A DNA stretch of 64,000 nt, taken from contig NZ_BMYK01000003.1 of the NCBI RefSeq assembly GCF_014652235.1, positions 322,547-386,546 of the forward strand. Reading direction: 5' to 3'. The stretch's first letter is position 1; each line of letters starts with the position of its first letter. This DNA comes from Pseudorhodoferax aquiterrae. GTDB taxonomy: Bacteria; Pseudomonadota; Gammaproteobacteria; Burkholderiales; Burkholderiaceae_C. The position numbers were made by a program, and so were the translations under genes. Positions 29,185 to 63,275 of the stretch are shown in pieces. Under the pieces are notes generated by a model, which worked only from the letters and a program-made list of their open reading frames with translations, made no database searches and had not been told where the DNA came from.

Positions 29185-30303
29185 TCAGCCGGCTGCACGG
29201 CGCTTGGCCACGGCCCGTGCCAAGGTGTCCAGCACGTCGACCGAAGGCTCCCAGCCCAGGCAGGCATCGGTGATGCTCTTGCCGTAGGCCAGCGCCTGCA
29301 CGCTGTCCTTGCCCGGCGTGAACTTCTGCGCACCGGCCACGAGGTGGCTCTCCACCATGACGCCGAAGACCTGGCGCGATCCGCCCGCGATCTGGGCCGC
29401 GATGTCGCCGGCCACCTCGGCCTGCTTCTCGTGCTGCTTGCTGCTGTTGGCATGGCTGCAGTCCACCATGAGGCTCGGCTGCATGCCGGCGGCGGCCAGT
29501 TCCTTGCAGGCAGCGGCCACGCTGGCGGCGTCGTAGTTGGGCGCCTTGCCGCCGCGCAGGATCACATGGCAATCCTTGTTGCCGTTGGTCTGCACGATGG
29601 CGACCTGGCCGTTCTTGTGCACCGACAGGAAGTGGTGGCCGCGCGCAGCCGCCTGGATGGCATCGGTGGCGATGCGGATGTTGCCGTCCGTGCCGTTCTT
29701 GAAGCCGATCGGCGCCGACAGGCCGGAGGCCAGTTCGCGGTGCACCTGGCTTTCGGTCGTCCGCGCGCCGATCGCACCCCAGGCGATCAGGTCGCCGATG
29801 TACTGCGGCGAGATCACATCCAGAAATTCACTGCCGGCCGGCAGGCCCAGGCGGTTGATATCGGTCAAGAGCTGGCGTGCGATGCGCAGGCCTTCGTCGA
29901 TGCGGTAGCTCTCGTCCAGGTAGGGATCGTTGATCAAACCCTTCCAGCCCACGGTGGTGCGCGGCTTCTCGAAGTAGACCCGCATGACGATCTCCAAATC
30001 GTCCGCGTACTTGTCGCGCAGCGGCTTCAAGCGGCGCGCGTACTCCAGCGCGGCGGCCGGATCGTGGATCGAACAGGGGCCGATGACGACCAGCAGGCGG
30101 TCGTCCTTGCCGGCCATGATGTCGTGGATGCGGGCCCGGGTGCGGCTGATCAGCGCCTCGACCGGCGTGCCGCGGATCGGGAAGAAGCGGATCAGATGTT
30201 CGGGAGGCGGGAGCACGTTGATGTCCTTGATGCGTTCGTCGTCGGTCTGGCTGGTTTTCTCGACGTTCGCGTACCAGGCGTCGGGGATCTGTTGCGTGCT
30301 CAT
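29185..30303 (-). CDS. aroG: 3-deoxy-7-phosphoheptulonate (DAHP) synthase
   Basis: This class I DAHP synthase condenses phosphoenolpyruvate with erythrose 4-phosphate, the first step of the shikimate pathway and the usual point of feedback by Phe, Tyr or Trp. The 372-residue protein has the family's IGPCSIHDP, EKPRTTVGWKGLINDP, KNGTDGN and the metal-site segment DCSHANS. It belongs to the AroF/G/H type; which amino acid inhibits it cannot be read safely here. GGAAGAG precedes the ATG. Just upstream, within the RNA leader, are a 13-bp intrinsic terminator and a 24-codon leader peptide gene rich in Phe, Tyr and Trp codons, so expression is probably set by transcription attenuation. aroE at 39.6 kb is a later step of the same pathway. 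Confidence 0.96.
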   Translation of the reverse strand: MSTQQIPDAWYANVEKTSQTDDERIKDINVLPPPEHLIRFFPIRGTPVEALISRTRARIHDIMAGKDDRLLVVIGPCSIHDPAAALEYARRLKPLRDKYADDLEIVMRVYFEKPRTTVGWKGLINDPYLDESYRIDEGLRIARQLLTDINRLGLPAGSEFLDVISPQYIGDLIAWGAIGARTTESQVHRELASGLSAPIGFKNGTDGNIRIATDAIQAAARGHHFLSVHKNGQVAIVQTNGNKDCHVILRGGKAPNYDAASVAAACKELAAAGMQPSLMVDCSHANSSKQHEKQAEVAGDIAAQIAGGSRQVFGVMVESHLVAGAQKFTPGKDSVQALAYGKSITDACLGWEPSVDVLDTLARAVAKRRAAG

Positions 30304-30335: not shown

Positions 30336-30373
30336 AAAAAAAACCGCCGGTCCTTGCGGTACCGGCGGTTTTT
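30336..30373 (-). terminator. Attenuator terminator in the aroG leader
   Basis: On the minus strand AAAAACCGCCGGT (30373-30361) pairs perfectly with ACCGGCGGTTTTT (30351-30339) around a 9-base loop, and the T-run continues to 30336. It lies 32 bases before the aroG ATG and after the leader peptide stop. The 7-mer CCGGCGG of its second arm also occurs inside the leader peptide gene (30422-30416), where it could pair with the first arm (CCGCCGG, 30368-30362) as an antiterminator. Confidence 0.85.
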
Positions 30374-30396
30374 GGAGGTTCTTTGCTAGCTGCTGT

Positions 30397-30471
30397 TTAC
30401 GCGCGCGCCTCTCGTCCGCCGGATTCCGGGAACCAAAAGTAGGCAAAGTAAAAAGCGCGGGAGGCAGACAT
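30397..30471 (-). CDS. aroG leader peptide (aromatic-rich)
   Basis: A 24-codon open frame from ATG at 30471 to TAA at 30397. Codons 7-14 encode F-Y-F-A-Y-F-W-F: four Phe, two Tyr and one Trp in eight residues, in an otherwise unremarkable short peptide. It ends 24 bases before a perfect intrinsic terminator, itself 32 bases before aroG (DAHP synthase). This is the layout of ribosome-mediated attenuators such as the pheA and trp leaders. The expected logic is that stalling at aromatic codons leaves the downstream CCGGCGG free to sequester the first arm of the terminator. One reservation is that this segment lies inside the peptide gene, 5-7 codons before the stop, not after it. A -10-like TAGAGT lies 8 bases before the ATG, with no ribosome binding site. 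Confidence 0.8.
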   Translation of the reverse strand: MSASRAFYFAYFWFPESGGREARA

Positions 30472-30479
30472 CGGGCGCG

Positions 30480-30485
30480 ACTCTA
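30480..30485 (-). promoter_or_regulatory. Extended -10 element for the aroG leader
   Basis: TGC-TAGAGT on the minus strand ends 8 bases before the leader peptide ATG, placing the RNA start about 1-3 bases before that ATG. It lies in the 3'-flank of tldD. No good -35 hexamer was found; read-through from tldD is the alternative source of the leader RNA. Confidence 0.45.
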
Positions 30486-30500
30486 GCACATCCCAACGGG

Positions 30501-31973
30501 TCAGGCCGTGCCGCCGACCGTGAGGCCGTCGATGCGCAGCGTGGGCTGGCCCACGCCGACCGGCACGCTCTGGCCTTCCTTGCCGCAGGTGCCCACGCCC
30601 GAGTCGAGCTTCATGTCGTTGCCGATCATGGACACGCGGGTCAGCGCATCCGGGCCGTTGCCGACCAGCGTCGCGCCCTTGACCGGGTACTGGATCTTGC
30701 CGTTTTCGACCCAGAAGGCCTCGCTCGCAGAGAACACGAACTTGCCCGAGGTGATGTCGACCTGGCCGCCGCCGAAGTTGCTCGCGTACAAGCCCTTCTT
30801 GATGCTGGCGATGATCTCGGCCGGGTCCTTGTCGCCGCCCAGCATGTAGGTGTTGGTCATGCGCGGCATCGGGATGTGGGCATAGCTCTCGCGCCGGCCG
30901 TTGCCCGTGGGCCGGACCTTCATGAGCCGCGCGTTCATGGCGTCCTGGATGTAGCCCTTCAAGATGCCGTCCTCGATCAGCACGTTGCGCTGGCTGGCGT
31001 TGCCCTCGTCGTCCACGTTGAGCGAGCCGCGGCGGTCGGCGATGGTGCCGTCGTCCAGCACGGTCACGCCCTTGGCGGCCACGCGCTGGCCGATGCGGCC
31101 GCTGAATGCGCTCGATCCCTTGCGGTTGAAGTCCCCTTCCAGCCCGTGGCCGATGGCCTCGTGCAGCAGGATGCCGGGCCAGCCCGCCCCCAGCACCACG
31201 GTCATCTCGCCGGCCGGCGCGGGGCGCGCGTCCAGGTTGGTCAGCGCGGCCTGGACGGCCTGGTTCACGTACTCGTCGATGCGCGCGGAATCGAAGTAGG
31301 CCAGGCCGAAGCGGCCGCCGCCGCCGCTGGAGCCGACCTCGCGGCGCGTCTGGCCGGCCACCTGGGCCTCGGCGATCACGGTGACCGACAGGCGCACGAG
31401 CGGCCGCACGTCGGCCGCCAGCGTGCCGTCGGCGCGCGCCACCAGCACCACGTCGTACTCGCTCGCCAGGCCAGCCATGACCTGCACCACGCGCGGGTCC
31501 TTGGCCCGGGCGCGTTGCTCCACCTGTTCGAGCAGCTTGACCTTGGCCGTGCTGTCCAGCGTGGCGATGGGGTCCAGACCGTCGTACAGCGAACGGCTGC
31601 CCGCGATCTTCTGCGCCGGCACCTTGGCACGCCTGCTCTGCGCGGCCGAGGAGATCGCGCGCACGGTGCGCGCGGCGTCCAGCAGCGAGGCCTCGGAAAT
31701 GTCGTCGGAATAGGCGAAGGCGGTCTTCTCGCCGCTGACCGCGCGCACGCCCACACCCTGGTCGATGCTGAAGGAGCCCGTCTTGACGATGCCCTCCTCC
31801 AGGCTCCAGCCCTCGCTGCGCGTGTACTGGAAGTACAGGTCGGCATCGTCGACCTTGTGCGCCTGGATCTCGGCCAGCGCGCGCTGCAGGTGCGCGGGCG
31901 TGAGGCCGAAGGGATCGAGCAGCAGTTGCTGAGCGGTGGCGATGCGGGCCAGGGTGGGTTCGCGGGAAATCAT
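30501..31973 (-). CDS. tldD: TldD metalloprotease subunit
   Basis: TldD, with its partner TldE/PmbA, forms a zinc protease that degrades unfolded peptides and processes antibiotic and toxin precursors such as microcin B17 and CcdA. The 490-residue protein has the zinc motif HEAIGHGLEGD and the conserved glycine-rich segments ASNFGGGQVDITSG and GNGPDALTRVSMIGNDMKLDSG. Length equals the family norm. PmbA is not in this window. The ATG at 31973 is preceded by TAGAAT at 6 bases, suggesting a leaderless transcript separate from rodA 23 bases upstream. Confidence 0.95.
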   Translation of the reverse strand: MISREPTLARIATAQQLLLDPFGLTPAHLQRALAEIQAHKVDDADLYFQYTRSEGWSLEEGIVKTGSFSIDQGVGVRAVSGEKTAFAYSDDISEASLLDAARTVRAISSAAQSRRAKVPAQKIAGSRSLYDGLDPIATLDSTAKVKLLEQVEQRARAKDPRVVQVMAGLASEYDVVLVARADGTLAADVRPLVRLSVTVIAEAQVAGQTRREVGSSGGGGRFGLAYFDSARIDEYVNQAVQAALTNLDARPAPAGEMTVVLGAGWPGILLHEAIGHGLEGDFNRKGSSAFSGRIGQRVAAKGVTVLDDGTIADRRGSLNVDDEGNASQRNVLIEDGILKGYIQDAMNARLMKVRPTGNGRRESYAHIPMPRMTNTYMLGGDKDPAEIIASIKKGLYASNFGGGQVDITSGKFVFSASEAFWVENGKIQYPVKGATLVGNGPDALTRVSMIGNDMKLDSGVGTCGKEGQSVPVGVGQPTLRIDGLTVGGTA

Positions 31974-63119: not shown

Positions 63120-63275
63120 GTAATCAAATCAATGACTTAGCTAGCAGAATCGCAGCGCCATAAAAGGGTAAAAATCGTTAAAAAAGAAGTACTTAGCACG
63201 AATATTCAATGTACGTGTTGAGCTTCTCGACTTCGACCCACTGGCTGCATACACAGGTACGCCCTGGTACGCGTT

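Follow-up and report, generated by a model that had tools for sequence, protein, structure and literature searches.

A conserved candidate attenuator with a Phe/Tyr/Trp leader ORF upstream of the DAHP-synthase gene aroG

The stretch of DNA analysed here, 64,000 nucleotides long and referred to below as the window, comes from a genome of 7.1 Mb and carries on its minus strand the gene order tldD, a 29 bp gap, a 24-codon leader ORF, a terminator and a DAHP-synthase gene (Table 1). An earlier note on this DNA had described a 24-codon leader gene with F-Y-F-A-Y-F-W-F at codons 7-14 followed by a perfect 13-bp intrinsic terminator with T8, and both were found at the locus, the leader occupying 30471-30397 of the minus strand. 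Its assignment of the downstream gene to DAHP synthase was borne out by a score of 541.4 bits against TIGR00034 (cut-off 173.2), with the isozyme name aroG being nominal because the product scores under the cut-off of the AroG equivalog model (547.1 against 568) and over that of the AroH subfamily model (502.1 against 463). A run in which seven of eight codons are aromatic was seen a single time when all six frames of the 64-kb window were read and never in 20 windows of equal size generated by a dinucleotide-Markov model, and the aromatic leader with a terminator before aroG is not due to chance. Another open-frame aromatic run, with six of eight residues aromatic (YFFFNDFY), lies on the minus strand at position 63191 of the window. 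The genome of the window has a second DAHP-synthase gene, and no leader lies ahead of it (L065); the second DAHP-synthase genes of this and 14 other genomes of the family (L054-L067, L069) were found to have no aromatic leader with terminator.

Table 1. Positions of the genes and of the proposed regulatory features at the aroG locus of the window.
Feature	Position	Strand	Details
tldD, upstream neighbour, not part of the switch	30501..31973	-	same strand as aroG; ends at 30501
Predicted extended -10 promoter TGTGCTAGAGT	30480..30490	-	hexamer TAGAGT 30485-30480; no recognisable -35
Leader ORF, 24 codons, MSASRAFYFAYFWFPESGGREARA, probably leaderless	30397..30471	-	ATG 30471; stop TAA 30399-30397; no Shine-Dalgarno
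Regulatory codons 7-14, Phe Tyr Phe Ala Tyr Phe Trp Phe	30430..30453	-	in-frame aromatic enrichment
Strand 1, 5' side of 1:2 hairpin	30426..30439	-	CTTTT 30439-30435, GTTC 30433-30430, CCGG 30429-30426
Strand 2, inside the leader ORF	30408..30422	-	CCGGCGG 30422-30416 and GAGG 30411-30408
Strand 3	30361..30378	-	CCTC 30378-30375 and terminator 5' arm AAAAACCGCCGGT 30373-30361
Terminator loop ACCGCAAGG	30352..30360	-	between the arms of the perfect 13-bp stem
Strand 4	30336..30351	-	terminator 3' arm ACCGGCGGTTTTT 30351-30339 and remainder of the T8 tract
T-tract, eight T, five within the stem	30336..30343	-	terminator end
aroG, regulated gene (DAHP synthase; isozyme name nominal)	29185..30303	-	ORF and profile match; start 30303

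AroG was looked for in the genomes of 60 relatives, 56 of which gave a match. In the GTDB family of the window an aroG orthologue was present in 36 of 36 genomes with at least 77% identity, one being truncated by a contig end. The comparison of regions upstream of aroG that had been proposed in the earlier note returned an in-frame aromatic leader in all 36 sampled family genomes and a terminator satisfying the rule of the script in 34, the stems being interrupted in L012 and L024, with terminator arms that covary (see below). A pattern taken from the part of the element that follows the aromatic codons was scanned over one genome per species, covering 84,980 species and giving at least 120 matches. 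Among the matches listed (at least 120), 101 have an aromatic leader and a terminator; of these 101 elements among the matches listed, 96 lie directly before aroG and for five the locus ends within 200 bases. Hosts among the matches listed include Acidovorax, Comamonas, Variovorax, Hydrogenophaga, Polaromonas and Rhodoferax, together with Limnohabitans, Roseateles, Rhizobacter, Aquabacterium and Ottowia. The remaining 19 of the matches listed look like chance, having at most four aromatic codons and no visible aroG. The script for leader and terminator was applied to 132 upstream regions (30 and 22 from relatives and 80 from the pattern scan), passing 101 and failing 31. Seven of the 31 failures (L012, L024, L053, L076, L113, L124 and L140) have an aromatic leader with a stem rejected by the rule, L086 starts inside the leader, and the rest are without an aromatic ORF and terminator, being order-level aroG regions or chance matches.

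The leader ORF carries codons for the end products of the pathway, as is expected of an attenuator. Across 66 non-redundant leaders, six of which come from other families and those from named hosts carrying no GTDB family assignment, the aromatic codon fraction is 0.594 in frame as against 0.209 and 0.143 in the other two frames. Phe is encoded in these 66 leaders by TTT 182 times and by TTC 117 times, and Tyr by TAC 71 times and by TAT 36 times; the use of TTT seems high for such hosts.

The intrinsic terminator stands between the leader ORF and the first structural gene, and the RNA can be divided into four strands (Table 1). Strand 1 overlaps the final regulatory codons of the leader ORF and strand 2 is a copy of part of terminator strand 4. 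In agreement with the earlier observation that CCGGCGG in the leader equals part of the second arm of the terminator and is complementary to the first arm, its partner was located as CCGCCGG at 30368-30362. Folding of the window RNA gave -15.2 kcal/mol for 1:2, -20.2 kcal/mol for 2:3, which forms after strand 1 has been covered, and -24.2 kcal/mol for the terminator 3:4. The antiterminator 2:3 is mutually exclusive with the terminator, some order-level sequences being unpaired at one position, and a 1:2 hairpin that sequesters strand 2 is found in the leaders of alignment A1 (described below), being weaker in some relatives (L026). In the 66 leaders the duplex of strand 2 with its own strand 3 has a mean of -21.8 kcal/mol compared with -19.7 kcal/mol for swapped partners and -13.6 kcal/mol for shuffled sequences, the own partner winning over the swapped one in 47 of 66, with a Wilcoxon p of 3.4e-5 that is only indicative because the leader sequences are related. 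The consensus fold of the full alignment contained the terminator alone, which is expected because the helices exclude each other, and therefore the three helices were tested separately.

Two hand-picked alignments were used for covariation, A1 comprising 56 of the 66 non-redundant leaders with L018 left out for its probable GTG start, and the order-wide A2 comprising 48 of 56 candidates. In A1 the terminator 3:4 is paired in 93.3% of cells with seven two-sided changed cells (shuffled mean 0.8), the antiterminator 2:3 in 94.6% with nine (shuffled 3.1) and the hairpin 1:2, whose covariation was computed for the outer helix and on A1 only, in 93.6% with seven (shuffled 0.8), each of these numbers of changed cells being reached in 0/500 shuffles. 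The covariation scores of all three helices in A1 were likewise matched by 0/500 shuffles, and sliding the partner along reduced pairing to 15-73%. The number of pairs changed on both sides in A1 was reached by 0, 12 and 8 of 500 shuffles for 3:4, 2:3 and 1:2 respectively, and counts of pair types do not stand out, those for 2:3 being reached by 259/500 shuffles in A1 and by 499/500 in the order-wide alignment. Order-wide, 3:4 has 23 two-sided cells (0/500 shuffles) and 2:3 has 11 (3/500 shuffles), and the second helix position is unpaired in 14 of the 48 sequences; the order-wide number of 2:3 pairs with two-sided change was reached by 274/500 shuffles and so is not distinct.

Across families this second helix position tends to vary in all strands together, with CCGGCGG / CCGCCGG / CCGGCGG in most of f1 and also in f3, and CTGGCGG / CCGCCAG / CTGGCGG in f11, f13 and f32, two of the three f4 sequences and one of the three from f23. 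The position pairs in 94 of 121 sequences (77 C-G, 10 T-A and 7 T-G) and is unpaired in 27, including f8, f30 and two of the three f44 sequences, a tally in which the pattern of the script finds no strand 2 in L037, L251 and L212, the latter two having near versions by eye. The covariation of strand 2 with strand 3 bears on whether the hairpin could instead be a constitutive terminator of the tldD unit next to a chance short ORF, with the aroG promoter lying further downstream, an explanation in keeping with the location of tldD upstream on the same strand, where such a terminator could serve it. In addition to that covariation, the leader codons are aromatic in one frame only, and leader, terminator and competing strand are also present at loci where no tldD end adjoins them, such as L008 and L011 (by eye), all of which makes this explanation extremely unlikely.

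The conserved segment that follows the aromatic codons is not read in a fixed frame, with strand 2 starting in frame 0, 2 or 1 in 54, 9 and 3 of the 66 leaders respectively. The peptide tails that follow the aromatic run therefore differ by lineage (PGGREA, KADERQ, RRLRGD and LAEEG) because a conserved RNA is read in different frames, and the retention of strand 2 even though it is read in all three frames argues that it acts as RNA. Unlike the tail, the aromatic run stays in the frame of the start codon. Arrest by the nascent peptide, as for TnaC, would have the leader peptide stall the ribosome on a free metabolite rather than at codons awaiting charged tRNA, and the frequency in the family of YFWF followed by S or P could be taken to favour it. 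However, F, Y and W interchange within the run, the length of the run varies and the peptide after it is one of several unrelated tails according to lineage, such that peptide arrest is very unlikely to account for the element.

Ribosome stalling at the codons themselves was modelled with a fixed ribosome edge, equilibrium pairing and an RNA ending at the end of strand 3, the standard edge being 16 nt beyond the first base of the P-site codon. Over the 66 leaders the mean P(2:3) is 0.82-0.99 with the A site 4-8 codons before strand 2 (0.82 at 4), drops to 0.10 at three codons and is 0 later, and 444 of 477 tallied aromatic codons sit 12 to 4 codons before strand 2. In the window leader, a stall at codons 5-14 gives a P(2:3) of 0.79-1.0 and one at codon 15 or beyond gives 0.0. 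Varying the footprint from 12 to 18 nt gave a mean P(2:3) of 0.88-0.93 over 470 aromatic codons compared with 0.26-0.34 over 919 others (0.92 and 0.27 for a footprint of 16), a contrast that is largely positional because a good share of the other codons fall in strand 2 or beyond it. In the model, the control codons are placed such that a stalled ribosome covers strand 1 and not strand 2, the edge of that range shifting by about 1-2 codons between the 12- and 18-nt footprints. In RNA free of ribosomes 2:3 forms with a mean P of 0.29 over the 66 leaders and of 1.0 in L026, so that in the model the 1:2 strand is not equally strong in all relatives.

The competing segment does lie before the leader stop codon, as noted earlier, and the accompanying doubt as to whether the trp model would apply was resolved by the geometry of the ribosome. 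The leader stop codon is 6-32 nt past the start of GGCGG in the 66 leaders, and therefore a terminating ribosome should cover strand 2 wholly or in its 3' part, in which case the location of strand 2 within the ORF is compatible with the trp scheme. When strand 4 was included, most sequences preferred the terminator at equilibrium, even behind a ribosome that had stalled (mean P at least 0.91 everywhere), with exceptions such as L049, and antitermination would therefore need co-transcriptional (kinetic) folding. Kinetic folding is likewise assumed for known attenuators.

A candidate promoter is placed very close to the leader, the -10 element in the window ending 8 nt before the leader ATG and an extended -10 ending 6-9 nt ahead of the start codon being present in 88 of the 101 leaders that pass the script. 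When leaders were aligned on the -10, 55 of 65 were close to TGTGCTACATT with no conservation farther upstream, five columns of this alignment (TG, TA and the final T) being set by the search pattern and the other columns free. A standard scan of the window for consensus sigma-70 promoters found nothing. Pairing of the leader start with the anti-Shine-Dalgarno sequence averaged -2.1 kcal/mol compared with -2.2 kcal/mol for shuffled sequences and was below -6 in 0/65. The spacing of the -10 together with the lack of Shine-Dalgarno pairing indicates that the leader RNA probably begins at or beside the AUG, such that the ORF would be leaderless. Several Streptomyces leaders have also been reported to start at or near the AUG (PMC8079986).

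In the proposed scheme transcription would begin at the leader AUG or within about two bases of it, with the ribosome loading on the 5' end independently of any Shine-Dalgarno sequence. With charged Phe, Tyr and Trp tRNAs in good supply, the ribosome would pass codons 7-14 and cover strand 2 while terminating, leaving strand 3 to pair with strand 4 such that transcription would end before aroG. A ribosome waiting at an aromatic codon would instead cover strand 1 and expose strand 2, which would pair with strand 3 (CCGGCGG:CCGCCGG and GAGG:CCTC), and with no terminator formed aroG would be transcribed. In an untranslated leader the 1:2 hairpin would hold strand 2, giving termination by default. 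As the arrangement is kept in many relatives, a shortage of its own end products probably switches the pathway on. The computed conservation before aroG, the covariation and the stall model support the earlier proposal of ribosome-mediated control, and the element is interpreted as a transcription attenuator of aroG of the trp/phe type with a probability of about 0.9.

Elements of this kind were also sought across the order. Of 15 order-level genomes with a region upstream of aroG, seven had a leader (G054 by way of the model R1) and eight had none. R1, a covariance model built on 56 leaders, was run on 250 evenly sampled genomes of the order, in 188 of which AroG was detected at E <= 1e-100, and matched 77 of the 250 at E <= 0.01. 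At E <= 3.2e-4 there were 62 matches, 58 of them followed within 400 bases by a co-oriented aroG and eight of these 58 belonging to the training alignment of R1 itself. The 58 span 14 GTDB families (f1, f3, f4, f8, f10, f11, f12, f13, f20, f23, f30, f32, f40 and f44), the family labels in the order-wide listing running up to f51. Four of the 62 were not placed by aroG, namely G148:C66 and three whose AroG was not among the rows listed (G145, G101 and G220), and the count of neighbourhoods covers the matches at E <= 3.2e-4, a further 27 being weaker (E 0.0015-0.01). On the genome of the window R1 returned the present element, its seven other matches there having E values no better than 0.07. 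Sixty regions upstream of aroG were taken from the 188 genomes with AroG, a non-random choice in which the first entries of the list predominated; the script recognised an aromatic ORF and a terminator in 24, inspection by eye added two, and 34 of these 60 order-level regions had no leader. In the small f32 genomes L201, L203 and L204 (1.7-2.1 Mb) AroG is 76% identical to that of the window and has no recognisable leader, which suggests that these genomes lost the attenuator.

A second covariance model, R2, was run on 321 genomes of the class, 37 of which match at E <= 0.001. Seven matches are strong (E <= 2.7e-12) and all seven lie before aroG, three in the family of the window and four outside the order, where leader and terminator are directly before aroG in two families, f63 (L263-L265) and f68 (L266), absent from the training set. 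The elements of L263-L266 are found at about position 1505 of the match-oriented strand with leaders such as FYFWYYFPKPLAEEG and YWFYFFY. Inspection of six loci of weak R2 matches revealed no aroG. At L272, about position 1508 in match orientation, a leader FYYFSSRFFF and a GC-rich terminator with T8 precede an ORF starting MQEDLNAMRRLID, which by eye looks like chorismate mutase/prephenate dehydratase and perhaps marks a pheA-type attenuator.

The notion of one sensor for Phe, Tyr and Trp held for the family and its near relatives, codons for all three being present in 63 of the 66 non-redundant leaders, and did not hold for the order-level leaders, in which a Trp codon was counted by eye in 7 of 24 and was absent from 17. 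On codon content, three-input sensing is a predicted trait of the family of the window and some others, with Phe/Tyr commoner elsewhere in the order-level sample. The same switch might respond in vivo to limitation for Phe alone, or perhaps also Tyr, with the single Trp codon incidental, in keeping with the dominance of Phe codons, the one Trp codon of the window leader and the 17 order-level leaders without Trp. Set against this are the presence of F, Y and W together in almost all of the 66 leaders and the placing of the Trp codons, most of which precede strand 2 by 5-6 codons, a distance at which the modelled P(2:3) is 0.99, so that such a restricted response is judged rather unlikely. We lean slightly towards the broader interpretation that one leaderless ORF acts as an OR-gate on Phe/Tyr/Trp charging for entry to the shikimate pathway in Comamonadaceae and many families of the order, the set of amino acids being retuned with the RNA switch kept. 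The retuning, as suggested by the codons, would be to Phe/Tyr/Trp in the group of the window and to Phe/Tyr in most others.

In E. coli the aromatic pathway is described as controlled by TyrR and TrpR together with feedback on the DAHP synthases, with RNA-level control named for trp and a Phe biosynthesis gene (PMC5343134). In the same source, TyrR and TrpR are reported to be shared by many gammaproteobacteria and to be missing from other classes (PMC5343134), so that how betaproteobacteria control the first step is a genuine question. An attenuator that is conserved and senses the end products would be a direct and testable answer to it. The element would also be a naturally occurring sensor with three inputs whose codons have been retuned from lineage to lineage, and its leader ORF is a candidate for leaderless translation behind a minimal promoter of the extended -10 type.

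No Rfam family reached its gathering score in the window or in 10 relatives. The best sub-threshold leader family in the window was Thr_leader (RF00506), which is alike in having a leader plus terminator and scored 22.3 bits, far under its gathering score of 55. The works of Vitreschak et al. 2004 and Panina et al. 2001 could hold predictions of such attenuators. Among open-licence papers in PubMed Central, a search that leaves those two works and supplementary tables (e.g. PMC2965389) outside its range, no aroG attenuator was found described for these bacteria.

With the E. coli pheA and trp leaders, in which codons for the end product, 1:2, 2:3 and 3:4 helices and a terminator precede a biosynthetic gene, the aroG element shares the leader ORF with end-product codons, the three helices and the terminator. 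It is unlike them in targeting the common first step, in combining codons for three end products within a single run, and in having strand 2 inside the ORF before the stop codon and a predicted leaderless ORF. The E. coli ilvGMEDA and thr leaders are multivalent attenuators that likewise use one leader for several amino acids sharing a pathway; they sense branched-chain amino acids or Thr/Ile, whereas the aroG leader is aromatic and has another sequence and other hosts. The name aroA in the Vibrio operon aroAI-alpha-Y > tyrA is one that we take to denote DAHP synthase. If so, the attenuators predicted before tyrA operons in Merino's database include one ahead of an operon starting with a DAHP-synthase gene (PMC1173090 Table 7), a computed attenuator that is similar in this respect and differs in its host, the tabulated material giving neither leader codons nor mechanism and listing Bordetella with another operon (PMC1173090). 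The uORFC-13-1 motif upstream of aroF, described from 24 examples in only Acholeplasma and environmental DNA (PMC8632094), is likewise a candidate for uORF-based attenuation of a DAHP-synthase gene and combines Phe codon(s) with a terminator; it differs in its ribosome-binding site and in a minimum of one Phe codon, and no relation to the aroG element is stated for it. In Sinorhizobium meliloti the attenuator RNA rnTrpL, encoding peTrpL, begins at the AUG of the leader ORF and is leaderless (PMC7298713), resembling the start predicted here; it is a Trp leader of trpE(G) in alphaproteobacteria with reported roles in trans, none being known for the aroG element. By analogy with S. meliloti TrpL, the short terminated RNA of the aroG leader or its peptide might also act in trans. 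The mechanism of attenuation is thus of a known kind, and what is new, as far as searched, is aroG as the target in these hosts, the run of codons for three amino acids, the strand 2 within the ORF, the probable leaderless start and the spread of the element.
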